64,000 nucleotides of DNA from Flavobacterium psychrophilum (GTDB taxonomy: Bacteria > Bacteroidota > Bacteroidia > Flavobacteriales > Flavobacteriaceae), in assembly GCA_003243255.1 (NCBI GenBank), contig QFQM01000004.1, forward strand, positions 26,743 to 90,742. The letters are read 5' to 3'. How positions within the stretch are numbered: the stretch's first letter is position 1; each line of letters starts with the position of its first letter. The notes below the pieces were generated by a model that saw only the letters and a list, made by a program, of their open reading frames with translations, was not told the origin of the DNA and made no database searches. Positions 12,518 to 40,717 of the stretch are shown here, piece by piece. Made by a program: the position numbers and the translations under genes.

Positions 12518-13666
12518 ATGCTTTTCTCAGAAATTTTAGGACAGGAACACATCAAAAGCCACCTTACCACAAGTGCCTCTTCGGCGCATATTCCACACGC
12601 ACAACTTTTTATAGGCCCCGAAGGCTCAGGTACTTTACCCATGGCTATTGCTTATGCACAGTATATTCTCTGTGCCAATACCGGCAACGAAAACACCAAC
12701 GGCAATGAAGCCTGTAACCTGAAGTTCCGCAACCTGTCGCACCCCGATCTGCATTTTGTTTTTCCGGTGTCGACCAATAGCGATGTGAAGAGCCATCCTG
12801 TGAGTGCCAATTTTTTAAAGGCCTGGCGTGAATTTGTTGAGGAAACACCTTACGGCAGTCTTTTCGACTGGTATAAAAAGATTGATATAGCCAATAAACA
12901 GGGACAGATAGGTGTAGACGAAGCTACCGAGATCGTAAAATCACTTTCGCTAAAAGCCTATGAAGGTGGTTATAAAGTGATGATCATCTGGATGGCCGAC
13001 AAAATGAACACCGCCACAGCCAACAAACTCCTGAAACTGCTGGAAGAACCGCCTGAAAAAACGGTTTTCCTCCTGATTGCCGAAAGCCAGGACGATATAC
13101 TGCAAACCATACTATCACGTTGCCAGGTGCTTAACTTTGGCCCATTGGGTGAAAAAGCAATTGTTGATGCGCTTGTTTCACGTGAAAATATGGAACAGCG
13201 TGCTGCCTTAAAAATTGCGCACCAGGCTCAGGGCAATTATAACAAAGCCCTGCATTTGCTGCACAAAACCGATGACCACAATCCGTTTGAAGAATGGTTT
13301 GTTATGTGGGTGCGTGCTGCTTTCCGTGCTAAGGGTAATGCCGCTGCCATTCAGGATCTTATTGCCTGGAGCGAGGCTATTGCAGGCATTGGCCGTGAAG
13401 CCCAAAAACAGTTCCTTAATTTCTGCATTGATATGTTCCGCCAGGCATTATTGCTGAATTATAATGCTAAAGAACTGGTTTTCATGGAACCGACCGTTGA
13501 TAAATTCAAGCTCGAAAATTTTGCGCCTTTTGTAAACGGCAACAACATAAACGACATTTTTAAAGAACTTAGCGATGCATTGTATCACATTGAGCGCAAC
13601 GGTAATGCAAAAATTATTTTAACCGACTTATCCATAAAACTCACACGATTAATCCATAAAAAATAA
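12518..13666 (+). CDS. holB: DNA polymerase III subunit delta prime
   Basis: A 382-aa clamp-loader subunit. The N-terminus MLFSEILGQEHIKSHL and the block KVMIIWMADKMNTATANKLL followed by LLEEPPEKTVFLL are characteristic of the DnaX/HolB family. The Walker A position reads GPEGSGT, with Thr in place of the usual Lys, which suits delta prime, a subunit that does not hydrolyse ATP. The sensor-like ILSRCQVL is present. Only two cysteines remain in the zinc-ribbon region (CANTGNENTNGNEAC). It is followed by doxX-like after 4 nt. Confidence 0.9.
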   Translation: MLFSEILGQEHIKSHLTTSASSAHIPHAQLFIGPEGSGTLPMAIAYAQYILCANTGNENTNGNEACNLKFRNLSHPDLHFVFPVSTNSDVKSHPVSANFLKAWREFVEETPYGSLFDWYKKIDIANKQGQIGVDEATEIVKSLSLKAYEGGYKVMIIWMADKMNTATANKLLKLLEEPPEKTVFLLIAESQDDILQTILSRCQVLNFGPLGEKAIVDALVSRENMEQRAALKIAHQAQGNYNKALHLLHKTDDHNPFEEWFVMWVRAAFRAKGNAAAIQDLIAWSEAIAGIGREAQKQFLNFCIDMFRQALLLNYNAKELVFMEPTVDKFKLENFAPFVNGNNINDIFKELSDALYHIERNGNAKIILTDLSIKLTRLIHKK

Positions 13667-18122: not shown

Positions 18123-18977
18123 TTAATTTTTGAGCGTTTTTAGCACATAAATATGCGAAGAATACTCAAAATTTTGTTTTGCTTTTAAATTTGAGCGTAA
18201 TCCGATCCAAAATCCTTTGACAAAACTCATTTTCCCGGTTTTATATTTTTCTGATAAAAGGCTCACATAAAAACTGTCAAATTTCATCGGGAAAATTTTT
18301 ACCAGCTGCATATCCTGTTTTCCAAAAAGCAGTTCGATAGCTTTTTTTGAAAAATGCCAAAGGTGTCTCGGCACATCATAAGCCGCCCAAAATTTACCGT
18401 AGTACTTCGCGTCAAAAGATTTATAATTCGGAACAGCAACTATCAAAACACCATCCGGTTTAAGGATTCTTTTTAATTCCGTAATCTGAGCTTCTACATC
18501 GGGCACATGTTCTAATACATGCCACATGGTAATTGCATCAGCAGAATGGTTTGGCATGTCGGCCAGTACGTTAAGAAACTTTACTCCTTTTGACTCTGCA
18601 ATAGATTTTGCCTTTGTGTTTGGCTCAACTCCTACGATGTCCCAACCATTTTTTTGAGCCATAACCAAAAAATCACCGGTTCCGGCACCAATATCGAGCA
18701 ATTTGCCTTTTTTTGGCTGAAATTGCTGCACTAATTTGATTTTATCGCGTAATGCTTTCTGTTTAACGGTATGATACAGCTTTTCAAACAAAGAGCGCTT
18801 TCCATCGGTATGCGAAATATAGTCATCGCTTTCATAATAGCTGCCCAGGTTTTCAGGAGCAGGCTGCGGATATGTTTTTAGTAATTCTAATTCTTCGTCC
18901 AGCAAAAGTTCAAATTTTTCTCCTGAAACAGAATAATCCTGTACTGTCATGTAAACGTTATGTTTTGAAAAATCCAT
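18123..18977 (-). CDS. Class I SAM-dependent methyltransferase
   Basis: A 284-aa enzyme with motif I LLDIGAGTGDFLVMAQ near residues 92-107, the acidic end of strand 2 in VGVEPNT, and motif ADAITMWHVLEHVPD near 147-161. The substrate is unknown. The long C-terminal part after the Rossmann fold (VPRHLWHFSKKAIELLFGK) is seen in methyltransferases of the type found near polysaccharide or quinone pathways, but no such genes are adjacent. Its start overlaps the stop of the lipoprotein gene by one base, so they form an operon with mnmG. Confidence 0.85.
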   Translation of the reverse strand: MDFSKHNVYMTVQDYSVSGEKFELLLDEELELLKTYPQPAPENLGSYYESDDYISHTDGKRSLFEKLYHTVKQKALRDKIKLVQQFQPKKGKLLDIGAGTGDFLVMAQKNGWDIVGVEPNTKAKSIAESKGVKFLNVLADMPNHSADAITMWHVLEHVPDVEAQITELKRILKPDGVLIVAVPNYKSFDAKYYGKFWAAYDVPRHLWHFSKKAIELLFGKQDMQLVKIFPMKFDSFYVSLLSEKYKTGKMSFVKGFWIGLRSNLKAKQNFEYSSHIYVLKTLKN

Positions 18978-19459
18978 TAATAGTTGTTGTATTGGTATTT
19001 TAAATCTCTTAAGTATTTAATAACAATTTTCTGGTAGAGCGAATTATCCGCTAAACAATCCTCATTGTTTTGGTCTATAACCGACATTCCTAAAAAATTG
19101 GCCGACGAACCAATCCTGTTGGGTTCTGTTTCAACAGTACTTACCATAAATTGGGTAAGATCATAATATTTTACCAACTCATCATCGGTGTATAAAAAAA
19201 CTTTAAACCGTACACCTTCAATATCCACATTATACGAAATGTCTTCCGTATAGCCCAAGCCGTATTTTATTACTAAAAATTCTTTGAAAGGCATTTTTGT
19301 CTGATTGTTTTCAAAAAAGAAACAGGTTAAGCCTTTTTCTCTTCCAATAATTTGTTTTCCGTTTTCTAACAGCAGATAGTCGCCTACTTCAACGGTATGC
19401 CTTGGCGTGATGCAACCAGATGTAAGAGCAAAAACCAAAAACAAGAAAAACCCTTTCAT
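18977..19459 (-). CDS. Hypothetical lipoprotein downstream of mnmG
   Basis: 160 aa from the ATG at 19459 (MKGFFLFLVFALTSGC), chosen because it starts a lipoprotein signal with lipobox TSGC. A longer frame from 19501 would add 14 residues encoded partly by the parS-like site. I do not recognise the family. The ATG lies in the loop of a perfect 11-bp hairpin (see 19446-19473), so its translation or transcription may be controlled there. It overlaps the methyltransferase start by one base. Confidence 0.65.
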   Translation of the reverse strand: MKGFFLFLVFALTSGCITPRHTVEVGDYLLLENGKQIIGREKGLTCFFFENNQTKMPFKEFLVIKYGLGYTEDISYNVDIEGVRFKVFLYTDDELVKYYDLTQFMVSTVETEPNRIGSSANFLGMSVIDQNNEDCLADNSLYQKIVIKYLRDLKYQYNNY

Positions 19460-19473
19460 TAAAAAGGGTTTTT
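19446..19473 (-). promoter_or_regulatory. Terminator-like hairpin with a start codon in its loop
   Basis: Minus-strand AAAAACCCTTT (19473-19463), loop TTAATG (19462-19457), AAAGGGTTTTT (19456-19446). The stem is a perfect 11 bp and is followed by T-rich sequence. The ATG in the loop is the start of the lipoprotein gene. It lies 28 nt after the mnmG stop, so it may end mnmG transcripts or gate the next gene. Confidence 0.6.
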
Positions 19474-19478
19474 TATAT

Positions 19479-19494
19479 CGTTCCACGTGAAACA
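19479..19494. promoter_or_regulatory. parS-like site after mnmG
   Basis: CGTTCCACGTGAAACA differs from the B. subtilis parS form TGTTCCACGTGAAACA at one base. It lies 6 nt past the mnmG stop and about 1.9 kb from the cluster at 21.4 kb. Confidence 0.7.
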
Positions 19495-19500
19495 TACTCA

Positions 19501-21372
19501 TTATCGTCCCATATGTATTAAAAGCACCGAAATATCACTTGGCGAAACACCACTAATGCGTGATGCCTGCGAAATAGTAACGGGCCTGATTTTTTTCATT
19601 TTTTCTTTCGCTTCATACGAAAGCGATTTTATCTTATCGTAATCAAAATTATCCGGAATCCTTAAATCTTCAAGTCGGTTAAGCTTATCCGCATTATTTT
19701 TTTCCTTTTCGATGTATCCTGAATATTTTACCTGAATTTCCGCCTGTTCTACAACTTCCCTATCCAGATTGTTCTCTTTGATGTATTCTTGGACTTTTTC
19801 AAACTTAAGAATATCTTCAAGCTCTAATTGCGGACGCGAAAATACTTTAAACATCTTATCAGGTTGCACCATAGGAGAAGAACCTTTTTCTTCCAGTATA
19901 GGATTTGCTTCAGCAACAGAAACACTTGTTTCTTTAAAGAAATTCACAAACGCTTCCGATTCGTCGCGTTTTTTCTCCATTCTTCGCAAACGATCTTCTT
20001 TAGCTAAGCCAATTTCATACGACAAAGGCGTAAGCCTGAAATCAGCATTATCCTGACGAAGTAATGTTCTGTACTCTGCACGCGATGTAAACATACGATA
20101 CGGTTCTTCCGTTCCCTTAGTGATAAGGTCATCCACAAGCACCCCTATATAAGCTTCATTACGTTTTAATATGAAAGGATCTTTTTCCTGCACTTTAAGC
20201 GCAGCATTAATACCGGCCATCAATCCCTGGGCGGCTGCCTCTTCATAACCGGTAGTTCCGTTAATTTGTCCGGCAAAAAACAATCCTTCAACTAATTTAG
20301 TTTCCAGCGTATGCTTTAACTGTGTAGGCGGGAAATAATCATATTCGATAGCATACCCGGGACGGAAGAACTTGACATTCTCAAAACCGGCAACAGAACG
20401 CAATGCTTTAAACTGAACATCCTCCGGGAGGGAGGTTGAAAATCCGTTCACATATACTTCCACCGTGTCCCATCCTTCAGGCTCAACAAAAAGCTGGTGA
20501 CGGTCTTTATCTGCAAAACGGTTAATTTTATCTTCAATCGAAGGACAATATCTTGGCCCCAAACTTTGAATACGGCCATTGAACATCGGAGAACGGTCAA
20601 AACCTTCACGAAGCAAATCATGAACAAGTTCAGACGTGTACGTCATATGACAAGAACGCTGATGCACCAACGGCCTGGTTACATCAGAATAGGAAAACTT
20701 ATCCGGGTTTTCATCTCCGGGTTGCTCAATCATTTTTGAATAATCCAGCGAACGCCCATCCACTCGTGGCGGTGTTCCCGTCTTCATTCTTCCGGAGTCA
20801 AAACCGGCACGAACTAGATCCTCCGTAATACCGTAAGCAGCACTCTCGCCTGCCCTACCTCCGCCAAACTGTTTCTCTCCGATATGGATCAATCCGTTCA
20901 GGAAAGTTCCGTTGGTCAACACAACCGTTTTAGCTTTGATTTCGATTCCAAGCGATGTTCTGATTCCTTTTATCTTCCCATCCTCAATTACAACTCCGGA
21001 AACCATTTCCTGATAAAAATCGAGATTCGGGGTACGCTCCAGCATCAGTCTCCACTCTTCAGCAAAACGCATCCTGTCGCTTTGCACACGCGGACTCCAC
21101 ATTGCAGGACCCTTTGATTTGTTCAGCATTCTAAACTGAATTGCCGTCTTATCAGACACAATTCCTGAATACCCACCAAGGGCATCAATCTCACGCACAA
21201 TCTGTCCTTTTGCAATTCCGCCCATGGCAGGATTGCATGACATCTGCGCTATGTTTTGCAGACTCATTGTTACAAGCAGCGTTTTGCTGCCCATGTTTGC
21301 AGCAGCAGCAGCAGCCTCAGAACCGGCGTGCCCCGCACCCACAACAATTACATCATATACTTCGTTAAACAT
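19501..21372 (-). CDS. mnmG: tRNA uridine-5-carboxymethylaminomethyl modification enzyme MnmG
   Basis: A 623-aa FAD-dependent enzyme that with MnmE modifies U34 of tRNAs. The start is ATG 21372 (MFNEVYDVIVVGAGHAGSEA); a longer frame would begin with GTG inside a parS-like palindrome. The FAD-binding VVGAGHAGSEAA is at residues 10-21. Other family signatures are MSCNPAMGGIAKGQIVREID near 47-66, FRPGYAIEYDYF and EEAAAQGLMAGINAA. Length is normal. mnmG (gidA) sits near the replication origin and parS in many bacteria, which agrees with the surrounding palindromes. Confidence 0.97.
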   Translation of the reverse strand: MFNEVYDVIVVGAGHAGSEAAAAAANMGSKTLLVTMSLQNIAQMSCNPAMGGIAKGQIVREIDALGGYSGIVSDKTAIQFRMLNKSKGPAMWSPRVQSDRMRFAEEWRLMLERTPNLDFYQEMVSGVVIEDGKIKGIRTSLGIEIKAKTVVLTNGTFLNGLIHIGEKQFGGGRAGESAAYGITEDLVRAGFDSGRMKTGTPPRVDGRSLDYSKMIEQPGDENPDKFSYSDVTRPLVHQRSCHMTYTSELVHDLLREGFDRSPMFNGRIQSLGPRYCPSIEDKINRFADKDRHQLFVEPEGWDTVEVYVNGFSTSLPEDVQFKALRSVAGFENVKFFRPGYAIEYDYFPPTQLKHTLETKLVEGLFFAGQINGTTGYEEAAAQGLMAGINAALKVQEKDPFILKRNEAYIGVLVDDLITKGTEEPYRMFTSRAEYRTLLRQDNADFRLTPLSYEIGLAKEDRLRRMEKKRDESEAFVNFFKETSVSVAEANPILEEKGSSPMVQPDKMFKVFSRPQLELEDILKFEKVQEYIKENNLDREVVEQAEIQVKYSGYIEKEKNNADKLNRLEDLRIPDNFDYDKIKSLSYEAKEKMKKIRPVTISQASRISGVSPSDISVLLIHMGR

Positions 21373-21385
21373 TTTTATTCTCCTT

Positions 21386-21401
21386 TGTTCCACGTGGAAC
21401 G
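21386..21401. promoter_or_regulatory. parS-like palindrome 1 of 4
   Basis: TGTTCCACGTGGAACG; the inner 14 bp (21387-21400) are a perfect palindrome. It lies 14 nt upstream of the mnmG ATG. The form TGTTCCACGTGGAACA is a known chromosomal parS sequence in Pseudomonas. Confidence 0.75.
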
Positions 21402-21434
21402 CTAAAAATTGCTAAAAAAATTTCGCCAAGCAGT

Positions 21435-21452
21435 ACGTTCCACGTGGAACGT
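21435..21452. promoter_or_regulatory. parS-like palindrome 2 of 4
   Basis: ACGTTCCACGTGGAACGT, an 18-bp perfect palindrome. Its centre lies 50 bp from site 1. Confidence 0.75.
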
Positions 21453-21479
21453 TCAAGACTTTCGGCTTTAAAATCGAAA

Positions 21480-21495
21480 CGTTCCACGTGGAACA
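21480..21495. promoter_or_regulatory. parS-like palindrome 3 of 4
   Basis: CGTTCCACGTGGAACA with a perfect 14-bp core. Its centre lies 44 bp from site 2. Confidence 0.75.
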
Positions 21496-21521
21496 TAACG
21501 AAATTTTATGAGCGGTTTAAT

Positions 21522-21941
21522 CTACTGTTCCACGTGGAACAGCTTCATTTTCTCTTCTTCCTTAGAACGCATAACTGTAGAATCCTCTTCCGACTTGTCT
21601 TTGTAACCACAGTAATGAAGAACACCATGAGCCATAACCCTGCGCAATTCATCAGCAAAAGAAACGCCATAATCAGCGGCATTATCCTTAACGCGCTCTA
21701 CAGAAATGAATATATCACCGCTTATAAGATTACCCATTGTATAGTCAAAACTGATAATATCAGTAAGCGTATCGTGATCTAAGAACTCTATGTTTTTTTG
21801 TAAAAGGTATTCATCATCACAGAATATGTAATTGATTTCACCTTCGGTTTTATCTTCTGATTCTATAACCTCAGAAATCCACTCTTCATATCTGGCTTCA
21901 TCCTGAAGCTCAAAATCGGTCTCGTAATTAAAACTAATCAT
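21522..21941 (-). CDS. ybeY: Endoribonuclease YbeY (16S rRNA maturation)
   Basis: A 139-aa metal-dependent RNase that matures 16S rRNA and acts in ribosome quality control. The metal motif AHGVLHYCGYKDKSEED lies near residues 108-124; the two His of HGVLH are present and the third ligand position reads K rather than H, as I believe is usual in Bacteroidota. The last six codons coincide with a parS-like palindrome, so the C-terminal LFHVEQ may be shaped by DNA function. The start overlaps the DUF4175 stop by 8 nt. Confidence 0.92.
   Translation of the reverse strand: MISFNYETDFELQDEARYEEWISEVIESEDKTEGEINYIFCDDEYLLQKNIEFLDHDTLTDIISFDYTMGNLISGDIFISVERVKDNAADYGVSFADELRRVMAHGVLHYCGYKDKSEEDSTVMRSKEEEKMKLFHVEQ
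21525..21542. promoter_or_regulatory. parS-like palindrome 4 of 4, inside ybeY
   Basis: CTGTTCCACGTGGAACAG, an 18-bp perfect palindrome whose centre lies 46 bp from site 3. It encodes the last six residues of YbeY (LFHVEQ) and is followed directly by its TAG stop. Confidence 0.75.
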
Positions 21942-29423: not shown

Positions 29424-30167
29424 GATTTCGTTTTTTTGAATTAATAATTATAAAGTTACCCTATTTAACATTTGTAGGATGTTAATAGGGCGTTAATTGA
29501 AAGCCAAAGTATGCAAAAATCAAAATAAGCCCGTATAATAAGGTTTCTCTATAATAAATGTACAAATACCTTCTTACAAAATTATAATTGAACCGTAGGA
29601 ATTTATGAAGGTCACTTTTTAATAAGTCATCTATTAAAAAATATTTTACTATAGATTATATTAATAATAGTCGTTTATAGATATTTATAAATGATATAAT
29701 AGTAACACTCTATAAATAGAATAATTGATTAAAAATTAAAACATAATAGATTTACACAATAATAAATAAAAACATTAAATTACCTAAAAATGATTAATAT
29801 AATAAATAAAAATTAAAATCAATATTAATTGTAAATATAATAGAAAATGTAAATAATAATTAATTATAAAAATTTTTGAAATTTTCATCAATATAATTTA
29901 TTAAATATAAAATTGATTAAGATTAAATATATAATAGTATTTATTAATAATATATAAAATTTAAAAATAAATTTAATTTAATAGTTTTTAATTATATAAA
30001 AGTCATCAACTAGGTAAAAATTAAAATAAAGCGTTTTAAGAATACTTTACCGACAAAACGTCCAAACACATTACTTGTTTTTTAAAATCGATTAAATTAA
30101 ATCCTGTGAGGTCACTTTTTTAAGTATTTATCTATATTAAATCTAAAATCAATCAATTTTATATATA
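29424..30167. other. Extremely A/T-rich gene-free stretch flanked by direct repeats
   Basis: Roughly 29,640-30,010 is almost only A and T. No frame carries a credible protein. AGGTCACTTTTTAA at 29609-29622 recurs as AGGTCACTTTTTTAA at 30109-30123, and the following 15-20 nt are also similar, so the core is bounded by an imperfect direct repeat of about 30 nt. No RNA gene is recognisable. Confidence 0.6.
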
Positions 30168-37015: not shown

Positions 37016-39202
37016 TTACACTTGTGCTTTCTTTCCTAAAAACTGGAAATCAAGCTGTTTCTTAACAAGATCGGCATTTTTAACCTTTACATATACTTCG
37101 TCACCCAGCTGCAGTAGGTTATGGCTTACTTCACCAACTAATGCATATTGCTTTTCGTCGAAAGTATAGTAATCATCCTTTATTTCACGTATGCGGCACA
37201 TACCCTCACATTTGTTCGATACGATCTCTACATATATCCCCCACTCTGTAACACCGGAAATAACGCCTAAGAACTCTTCATCCTTATGGTCGAGCATATA
37301 CTTCACCTGCATGTATTTAATGCTGTCACGCTCTGCATTTGCAGCCAGGTTCTCCATGTTGGATGAATGCACACATTGTTCTTCTAACGTATCTTCTTCA
37401 GCTGATTTTCCGCCATCCAGGTAATATTGCAGCAATCGGTGTGCCATAACATCGGGATATCTTCGGATAGGCGATGTAAAATGCGAGTAATAATCAAACG
37501 CAAGTCCGTAGTGGCCTATATTATGCGTAGAATATTTCGCTTTGCTCATCGACCTGATAGCCAGTGTATCAACAAGGTTTTGTTCTTTTCTTCCCTGTAC
37601 TTCTTCCAAAAGGTTATTAAGCGATTTCGATACCGAAGCCTTACTTTTAAAATTGATGCTATAACCAAATTTAGCGATTACAGTCTGCAGGTTGATCAGT
37701 TTATCCTCATCCGGTTCATCGTGAATACGATACACAAAAGTCTTGTTTTGCTTACCAATAAATTCAGCTACTTTTCTATTTGCCAACAGCATGAATTCTT
37801 CAATAAGATGGTTGGCATCTTTGGCAACTTTAAAGTAAACACCGGTAGGTTCTGCATTTTCATTCAGGTGGAATTTCACTTCTACCTTATCAAAAGAAAT
37901 AGCACCATTAGCCATTCTTTTCCTTCTCAATATCTTGGCAAGTTCATCCATTTTAAGGGTAGCCTGTTGTATTTCAGGGCTAATAGTATATTCCTCCCCT
38001 GTTAGTGATATCTCTGCCGGAATAGTATTTCCTTTGGTTTCTATAATATGCTGTGCTTCCTCATAAGCAAAACGCTGATCGGAATAAATAACAGTACGTC
38101 CAAACCATTGATTAACAACCTCTCCTTTATCCGTTAGTTCAAAAATGGCTGAGAACGTATATTTCTCTTCATGCGGACGTAACGAACACGCAAAGTTTGA
38201 TAATACTTCAGGAAGCATAGGTACTACCCTGTCTACCAGATACACCGATGTTGCTCTCTGATAGGCTTCATCATCCAGTATGGTTCCGGGTTGCAGGTAA
38301 TGCGATACATCGGCAATATGGATACCTATCTCATAATTACCATTATCCAGTTTTTCAAACGATAAGGCATCATCAAAGTCTTTAGCATCACGAGGATCAA
38401 TAGTAAAAGTCAGTATATTACGCATATCCCTTCTTCTGGCAATCTCTTCCGGATGGATTTCAGTATCGATCTTTTGTGCATAAGCCTCAACATCAATAGG
38501 GAAATCATAAGGCAATCCGTATTCTGCAAGAATAGCATGAATTTCTGTATTATGTTCACCAGGCCTTCCAAGTACTCTTGTTACTTCACCAAAAGGGCTA
38601 TCAGCTTTAGCCGGCCAGTCATCCAGTTTTACAAGTACGACATCACCGTTCTGGGCATTTCCTTCTTTCCCTTTGGGGATAAAGATATCGGTATACATCT
38701 TAGGGTTTGCAGTAGATACAAAGGAGAAATTCTTTTGTATATCAATTACACCAACAAACTCTGTTTTGGCTCTTTCTAATATTTCAACTACTTCACCTTC
38801 AGGTTTTCTTCCTCTTCTCCTGTTGTATATATATACCTTAACCTTGTCTTTATCAAGGGCTTTATTCAGGTTATTGGTAGGGATAAAAACATCTTCTTCC
38901 AACTCCGGAGAAATAAAATAGGCAGTTTTCCTGCTCGTCATATCAATAGTACCTTCAATGTAATCAGCTTTACTGATAACCCTGTACTTACCTCTCTCTA
39001 TTTCTTCTATCTTTTCCTGTGAAGCTAAAATCTTAAGTTCCTTAATAATCTCATTCCTGCTCTTGGTATCGTTTAGTTCCAGTACTGCCGATATCTGCTT
39101 ATAGTTGAATGATTTATTAGGGTCTTTGGCGAGTATTTTATAGATTTTCCTTGAAAAATCTTTCTCTTTCTTTGGGGACGGTCGTCCGTTCTTCTTACTC
39201 AT
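37016..39202 (-). CDS. rnr: Ribonuclease R
   Basis: A 728-aa 3'-5' exoribonuclease of the RNB family that degrades structured RNA. The N-terminal winged helix is at about 10-65 (RKIYKILAKDPNKSFNYKQI), cold-shock domains at about 70-240, and the catalytic RNB signature with the metal-binding Asp cluster TIDPRDAKDFDDALS near residues 271-285. The S1 domain is at about 640-715. The Lys-rich tail of E. coli RNase R is shortened. It is the last minus-strand gene before the candidate origin. Confidence 0.95.
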   Translation of the reverse strand: MSKKNGRPSPKKEKDFSRKIYKILAKDPNKSFNYKQISAVLELNDTKSRNEIIKELKILASQEKIEEIERGKYRVISKADYIEGTIDMTSRKTAYFISPELEEDVFIPTNNLNKALDKDKVKVYIYNRRRGRKPEGEVVEILERAKTEFVGVIDIQKNFSFVSTANPKMYTDIFIPKGKEGNAQNGDVVLVKLDDWPAKADSPFGEVTRVLGRPGEHNTEIHAILAEYGLPYDFPIDVEAYAQKIDTEIHPEEIARRRDMRNILTFTIDPRDAKDFDDALSFEKLDNGNYEIGIHIADVSHYLQPGTILDDEAYQRATSVYLVDRVVPMLPEVLSNFACSLRPHEEKYTFSAIFELTDKGEVVNQWFGRTVIYSDQRFAYEEAQHIIETKGNTIPAEISLTGEEYTISPEIQQATLKMDELAKILRRKRMANGAISFDKVEVKFHLNENAEPTGVYFKVAKDANHLIEEFMLLANRKVAEFIGKQNKTFVYRIHDEPDEDKLINLQTVIAKFGYSINFKSKASVSKSLNNLLEEVQGRKEQNLVDTLAIRSMSKAKYSTHNIGHYGLAFDYYSHFTSPIRRYPDVMAHRLLQYYLDGGKSAEEDTLEEQCVHSSNMENLAANAERDSIKYMQVKYMLDHKDEEFLGVISGVTEWGIYVEIVSNKCEGMCRIREIKDDYYTFDEKQYALVGEVSHNLLQLGDEVYVKVKNADLVKKQLDFQFLGKKAQV

Positions 39203-39318
39203 ATATCATAAAATAATGCTGAAAATTACAAATAACTGACAGAATTATAAGGCTTTTAATGAAATAATAACTTTTAACTCTTTAATTTTATATACAAATA
39301 CTACCCAAACTATCTTAT

Positions 39319-39558
39319 ATGAAAGACTTTATAACGGCCGCAGTATTCAACTACCCTCACGAAATAACCATACTAAAACATCTGTTACAGGATGAAGAGA
39401 TACAGCATTACTTCGAAAATGAAACCATTGCCGATCTCATGCCAATGTACTCTTACGCTACGGGAGGCATCAAACTCAAAGTACATCCCAACGATCTCGA
39501 TACCGTAAAGGAAATAATCAGCAGACTAAATACAGGAACAAATTTAAAAATCGTCTGA
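39319..39558 (+). CDS. DUF2007-type small protein
   Basis: A 79-aa protein: FNYPHEITILKHLLQDEEIQ and GGIKLKVHPNDLDTVKEII are typical of the DUF2007 (putative signal-transducing) fold, a PII-like small domain. The function is unknown. First plus-strand gene in the polarity switch; the candidate origin starts right after its stop. Confidence 0.75.
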   Translation: MKDFITAAVFNYPHEITILKHLLQDEEIQHYFENETIADLMPMYSYATGGIKLKVHPNDLDTVKEIISRLNTGTNLKIV

Positions 39559-40257
39559 ATCAACAAAAAGGTTTTCAACAGTTATTAAATAAAAGAAAAA
39601 AAGAAGATTTTAAATTTTAAGATTTTTGATTGTTATTATTGCTTGTTGATATGTGGAATAACTTTTTTGAAGGAAGTGTACTTTTGTAGTTATACAATTT
39701 TATACAAAGCTATCAACAATGTTAAGAGAATGTAAAATTTTAAAAATCAGTATAATTATAAATTTTTGGTAAAGGTTATTAACAATGGTTGATACCAATT
39801 TTTGAGGGTATTTTATTAATAAGTTTCATTGTTAATAGCTGTTAATAACCCTTGTTAATGTTTTGATAACATTCGGTAAAAAAGTAAAAAATAAATTTGG
39901 TCATTTCGATCCTATTTTTGATTAGTAAAAATTTCTTTCACTTCTAAAAAATCTTCTCTTTTTTCATTTTTAGTTATCAACAAATACTGTTAAAATTCAA
40001 CATCCTTTAAATACAGTACTTTACGAAAATTATCAACATTGTTGCATTTTAACATTTTAATCGATATATTATCTGTGCGAAGAATTGCTAAATGTTTGAT
40101 TTTTAAGTAGAAATAGTAATTTGACTTAAAAAATTTTTCGCGGTGCTGACGCACCCTATTTTATTCACTGCGCCGGGCAAAAGTAAGCCCTAGTTTTATG
40201 TAAATGTTATTTTAAGTAAAACTGCCTGTTTTTAATACCATGCACCACAATTATTTA
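39559..40257. other. oriC: Candidate replication origin (oriC) region
   Basis: About 700 nt without a gene, A/T-rich and dense in DnaA-box-like 9-mers (consensus TTATCCACA, variants at one or two positions). On plus: TTTTCAACA 39572, CTATCAACA 39710, TTATTAACA 39776, TTATCAACA 39974 and 40030. On minus: ATATCAACA at 39644-39652, CTATTAACA 39830-39838, TTATTAACA 39840-39848, TTATCAAAA 39861-39869. T-rich stretches near 39,880-39,960 could unwind. A small GGTGC-TGAC-GCACC hairpin lies at 40142-40155. Gene polarity flips exactly here. The dnaA gene itself is not in the window. Confidence 0.55.
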
Positions 40258-40265
40258 TAATTTTG
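40258..40265 (+). promoter_or_regulatory. -7 element of rpiB
   Basis: TAATTTTG fits TAnnTTTG and lies 14 nt before the rpiB ATG. Confidence 0.5.
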
Positions 40266-40279
40266 CAGTCTAAACTAAT

Positions 40280-40717
40280 ATGTACATGAAAATATCTATC
40301 GGCAACGACCATGCAGGGCCTGATTATAAACTAGCTATTGTAAAACACCTTGAGAGTAAAGGTATAGAAGTGATCAACCACGGAACAGACACTTTTGACA
40401 GTGTTGACTATCCTGATTTTGTTCACCCGGTAGCGAATGACGTAGAGAACGGTGTGGTAGATTTTGGTATCATCATCTGCGGAAGCGGAAATGGTGTGGC
40501 TATGTCTGTTAACAAACATCAAAAGGTAAGGGGAGCACTTTGCTGGATAAAAGAGATCGCGGTACTGGCACGCCAGCACAACGACGCTAACATCATCAGT
40601 CTTCCTGCACGTTATACATCAATACAACAGTGCGTAGAAATGGTTGACGCTTTCCTTAACACAGCTTTTGAAGGCGGACGTCACCAGAACAGAGTTGATA
40701 AAATAGCTTGTAAATAG
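40280..40717 (+). CDS. rpiB: Ribose-5-phosphate isomerase B
   Basis: A 145-aa enzyme that interconverts ribose-5-phosphate and ribulose-5-phosphate. RpiB motifs: SIGNDHAGPDYK near residues 5-16, YPDFVHPVA near 43-51, and IICGSGNGVAMSVNK near 64-78 with the catalytic Cys. NDANIISLPAR near 97-107 is conserved. The start may be the second Met (40286). The CDF transporter follows after 14 nt. Confidence 0.94.
   Translation: MYMKISIGNDHAGPDYKLAIVKHLESKGIEVINHGTDTFDSVDYPDFVHPVANDVENGVVDFGIIICGSGNGVAMSVNKHQKVRGALCWIKEIAVLARQHNDANIISLPARYTSIQQCVEMVDAFLNTAFEGGRHQNRVDKIACK

Follow-up and report, generated by a model that had tools for sequence, protein, structure and literature searches.

A cluster of parS palindromes beside mnmG as the probable chromosomal centromere of a Flavobacterium

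In Pseudomonas aeruginosa the sites parS1 to parS4, which share one palindromic core, form the cluster nearest to oriC, while additional sites are spread along the chromosome, and binding of ParB to this sequence has been demonstrated (excerpts of PMC4368675). For Myxococcus xanthus 22 sites are listed, with the consensus TGTTCCACGTGGAACG (excerpts of PMC7022226). Hi-C analysis of 12 strains from the gut, including two Bacteroidetes, placed parS clusters at the replication origins, which did not always coincide with dnaA, and detected none of the known condensins in this pair; these two, Bacteroides caecimuris and Muribaculum intestinale, carry parS clusters at the origin and share the phylum of the DNA analysed here, but belong to other families, and neither a ybeY-mnmG anatomy, nor a site within ybeY, nor the spacing of the sites is described in the available excerpts (PMC10197239). 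The general idea of parS at the origin, and of an origin apart from dnaA, is already known. A search of the literature found no paper on parS in Flavobacterium and no description of the Flavobacterium anatomy, of a lower limit of spacing or of a site inside ybeY; an earlier prediction in the 2007 cross-bacteria survey of parS is possible.

The window, i.e. the whole stretch of 64,000 nucleotides under analysis, contains four exact copies of the palindrome GTTCCACGTGGAAC, all located between ybeY and mnmG and spanning 154 bp: site 1 at 21387..21400, site 2 at 21437..21450, site 3 at 21481..21494 and site 4 at 21527..21540. Their centres are 50, 44 and 46 bp apart, as reported in an earlier note made from the sequence alone, and the Pseudomonas parS core recognized there in the palindrome is indeed identical to that of sites 1-4. 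When flanking bases are included, site 1 reads TGTTCCACGTGGAACG, the consensus listed for M. xanthus, and site 4 reads TGTTCCACGTGGAACA, the sequence of P. aeruginosa parS2 and parS3. Two further elements are absent from the earlier note: site 5, GTTCCACGTGAAAC (19480..19493), which fits the family consensus GTTYCACGTGRAAC and lies directly beyond the mnmG stop codon, 1.9 kb from the cluster, and a one-mismatch copy, GTTTCACGTGAAAA (13175..13188), possibly a weak site; in relatives, one-mismatch matches are found at control level. About 0.0007 exact sites are expected in the window from base composition, against five exact family members, and seven matches with up to two mismatches to GTTYCACGTGRAAC were counted, against a mean of 0.35 and a maximum of 2 in 100 dinucleotide shuffles.

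The gene mnmG (gidA; 19501..21372, minus strand; TIGR00136, 843.8 bits) has sites on both sides and none inside. Its open reading frame, as listed from the GTG at 21393, would overlap site 1; the likelier start is the ATG at 21372, with a ribosome-binding-like motif, AAAGGAG, between this codon and site 1, which is located immediately upstream of both. Site 4 is contained within the final codons of ybeY (21522..21941, minus strand; TIGR00043, 102.1 bits), where it codes for FHVE. The same tetrapeptide is coded by site 5, near the start of the open reading frame 18977-19501. This frame has 174 residues, with a start region MSMFHVER, and matched no family in NCBIfam or Pfam.

MnmG and RNase R of the window are 99% identical to those of the closest genome, G029 (genus of F. 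subsaxonicum), and the window was therefore assigned to a Flavobacterium close to it. A scan of a species collection for clustered sites (three sites) returned at least 116 stretches; of the 116 listed, 72 also encode MnmG and 78 either MnmG or YbeY in the surrounding DNA covered, and the best full-length MnmG among the matches listed, from Flavobacterium sp. Sd200, is 92% identical over 626 residues. All 61 Flavobacterium genomes contain exact parS sites, from 2 to 10 each, fewer than the 22 of M. xanthus, while the reversed control gave one match in one genome. The location of the sites was evaluated in the 11 genomes whose contig C1 carries dnaA, mnmG, rnr, parB and every site, six of these genomes being assumed complete from their coordinates. 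In this set each of the 48 exact sites is found no more than 0.8 kb from an end of mnmG, at a single locus, unlike the sites spread along the P. aeruginosa chromosome. The even dispersal over the genome that the earlier note had named as evidence against a centromere is thus absent from these genomes, a result which speaks against a dispersed transcription-factor operator. Similarly, every exact site of four near relatives falls at the mnmG locus; each of these genomes has one extra one-mismatch match, not above the level of the reversed control, found about 0.6 kb past the last exact site in G002 and on another contig in the other three.

The anatomy of the locus was compared between the window and 30 relatives, the best 30 of the 61 genomes by MnmG score; as these genomes are related, the counts are not independent observations. 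The cluster recurs near mnmG in all 30, the outcome for which the earlier note had proposed to look. Of the 165 parS sites in the 31 sequences, 29 are in the end of ybeY, 95 between the two genes (gap sites), 39 downstream of mnmG and two upstream, where the available stretch does not show ybeY; mnmG itself contains none. One or two downstream sites are present in each of the 31 sequences. The site internal to ybeY is found in 29 of the 30 sequences with ybeY in view, being missing in L130, and the tail that it codes is FHVE in 28 cases and FHVK in one. The number and position of the gap sites differ between species.

A spacing by helical turns, suggested earlier for the four sites of the window, found no support: for 86 spacings below 100 bp in the 31 sequences, resultant lengths were 0.06-0.11 at periods of 10, 10.5 and 11. 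The spacings do show a lower limit. None of 80 spacings, from 18 clusters of at least three sites in the 30 relatives, is shorter than 38 bp; with the outermost sites of each cluster kept fixed, placing the others at random gave a mean of 25 such spacings and never zero in 2000 runs. Spacings of 35 and 37 occur in G002, outside those 30 relatives, and a minimum of 35-38 bp between neighbouring sites is therefore supported.

A ParB protein scoring above the TIGR00180 cut-off is encoded in all 61 Flavobacterium genomes, with one clear ParB in nearly all of them. The ParB of G029 is made up of ParB_N, HTH_ParB and ParB_C domains, and matches Caulobacter ParB (6t1f) with an E value of 2.1e-47; its recognition region contains GKKR and MGH. 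In the same genome, the one checked for a parA-parB pair, a ParA-like ATPase frame (PF13614, 234 bits) directly precedes parB; its score falls short of the cut-offs set for the ParA models listed from NCBIfam. Genome G055 also contains a second match to the ParB domain (C5:248606-249121, E 9e-44), within an open frame of 804 residues, the usual ParB having about 300.

The position of the origin in the relatives was evaluated from the direction of rRNA operons, assumed to run away from the origin, and from GC skew at four-fold sites, and both put it at mnmG and not at dnaA. Operons on both strands make 9 of the 11 genomes informative, and mnmG is within the rRNA-defined origin interval in all nine. 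The gene dnaA, located 0.89-1.29 Mb from mnmG in all 11, is excluded as the origin by rRNA strands in six of the nine (G022, G012, G036, G035, G045 and G046) and not in the other three. The contigs of 7 of the 11 start with dnaA, found in the first 130 bases, a point some 1 Mb distant from the mapped origin. Since plain GC skew (20 kb samples, one genome) was too noisy, a two-arm model was fitted to the skew of four-fold sites with gene strand considered, using 20 samples of 20 kb in each of five genomes. The fitted origin coincides with mnmG and rnr or adjoins them in four of these genomes: at 0.74-0.88 Mb in G030 (residual sums of 223, 342 and 359 for the best fit, for dnaA and for no arms), 1.42-1.46 Mb in G046 (131, 368, 370), 0.86-0.90 Mb in G036 (135, 251, 260) and 1.10-1.12 Mb in G035 (85, 166, 194). 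The fit at dnaA is poor in four of the five. The G030 fit is rough, because its terminus, 1.62 Mb, conflicts with the rRNA operons of the same genome. G022 has nearly no skew, and its best fit, 1.38-1.50 Mb, does not favour mnmG, the residual at mnmG being 74.9 against 74.7. In this genome (2.96 Mb, one contig) rnr is inverted and lies about 70 kb from mnmG, which together with the near absence of skew suggests a recent rearrangement, although its three parS sites still flank mnmG. For a dif-like terminus pattern nothing credible was found in the 11 genomes: five matched, all with two mismatches, and controls were higher.

The earlier description of mnmG as a gene often close to parAB and oriC is borne out for the origin, which maps to this locus in relatives, and fails for parAB: parB is 0.81-1.26 Mb from the mnmG sites in all 11 genomes. 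The distance of about 1 Mb to both parAB and dnaA distinguishes Flavobacterium from P. aeruginosa. In some other genomes parB is near dnaA, e.g. at 5-7 kb in G027 and G044.

Within the window, the sign of the GC skew reverses near 39-40 kb, some 18 kb away from the parS cluster. This point falls in an AT-rich gap (39203..40279) between the divergent genes rnr (RNase R; 37016..39202, minus strand; TIGR02063, 743.4 bits), its left border, and an rpiB-like isomerase gene (40280..40717, plus strand; NF004051, 170.3 bits), its right border. The gap contains four boxes of the form TTAT[CT]AACA and, by inference, is the probable oriC. The rpiB gene neighbours rnr in 28 of the 30 relatives that provided an rnr locus, the gap being short (376-664 bp) in four of the 28. 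TTAT[CT]AACA occurs 79 times in the gaps of these 28 relatives and of the window, against 3.8 expected under a first-order Markov model, and is present in 26 of the 29; that it acts here as the DnaA box is a guess. The same 29 gaps contain no TTATCCACA box, and the window has no excess of this motif (25 one-mismatch matches against 19.4 expected, with no exact one). The gap of the window is also rich in TTTTCAACA.

The exact core, the confinement of the sites at mnmG, a ParB with parS-reading residues, the parA-parB pair and the origin at mnmG together lead us to read the cluster as the chromosomal parS centromere of a Flavobacterium, a known kind of element, with a probability of about 0.93. 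Counting against this reading are the distance of the sites from parAB, the skew fit of G022, the higher bit score of the G029 ParB with the Noc model than with TIGR00180 and the absence of co-variation of sites and ParB across the phylum. The centromere proposed in the earlier note is thus supported by confinement, by ParB residues and by the position of the origin in relatives, which the window's own genome presumably resembles in behaviour. ParB dimers would bind each palindrome, and the bound protein would close into CTP-dependent clamps, sliding onto adjacent DNA including mnmG; ParA would move the ParB-loaded origin regions apart after replication. The loading of clamps is part of the general knowledge of ParB.

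The sites might alternatively be bound by ParB but be kept at mnmG mainly for the regulation of mnmG or ybeY, segregation being secondary. Site 1 abuts the start signals of mnmG, and in P. aeruginosa promoters beside parS3 and parS4 are repressed, according to the title of PMC5521831. The sites are nevertheless at the replication origin in relatives, as expected of a centromere, and gap sites differ from species to species in both number and position, unlike the sites of a tuned operator, so that regulation as the main role is very unlikely. Still less probable is an operator of some other transcription factor reading a CACGTG-centred palindrome. Palindromic repeats upstream of a gene would suit such an operator, but the 11 genomes have no exact site elsewhere, sites occur downstream of mnmG in every sequence compared and inside ybeY in all but one of those showing this gene, and the sequence is that of parS sites with demonstrated binding of ParB (excerpts of PMC4368675).

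The remaining alternative, that the sites serve a Noc-like protein rather than ParB, can be given hardly any credit. It draws on the 239.2 bits scored by the ParB of G029 against the Noc model TIGR04285, a value below the model cut-off of 315; the same protein reaches 176.1 bits with TIGR00180, whose cut-off is 58.45. R173 and G201 are described as absolutely conserved in ParB, switched to Q173 and R201 in Noc, and tied to the reading of parS (excerpts of PMC7383237). Their equivalents, and not the Noc residues, are kept in 12 of 12 aligned Flavobacterium proteins; over 42 ParB rows, made up of these 12 and the best-scoring 30 of 296 phylum genomes, R173 is found in 41 and G201 in 42. The single clear ParB in nearly all 61 genomes likewise argues against Noc.

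In the 296 genomes from the phylum, exact sites were detected in 274, ParB in 294 and a control match in 14. ParB is present in every one of the 22 genomes that lack exact sites, and each of the two genomes with no ParB match has two sites; as there is no co-variation, presence in the phylum is uninformative on the dependence of sites on ParB. Positions were listed for the sites of 30 of the 296 genomes and, in 29 of these, for mnmG as well: 23 have a site beside mnmG, two have sites 26 kb and 118 kb away on the mnmG contig, and the other four have them on different contigs.

A wider reading of the centromere is offered tentatively, as possible rather than probable. In Flavobacterium, and perhaps in much of the Bacteroidota, the centromere would stay with mnmG and the origin instead of parAB and dnaA, about 1 Mb off; the floor of 35-38 bp without phasing would look like a limit imposed by the footprint of a single ParB clamp during loading; one site would be written into the end of ybeY; and mnmG, enclosed between loading sites, may be covered by sliding ParB. 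Where dnaA fails to mark the replication origin, as in this group, the parS cluster provides a marker of it in the sequence. The Flavobacterium locus also offers a natural test of whether parS must be near parAB, which here it is not, and its clusters offer another of how tightly ParB loading sites pack.

A very AT-rich intergenic stretch of the window, at 29500-29999 (GC 0.136), is located between small membrane-type open reading frames and a glnS-like gene.
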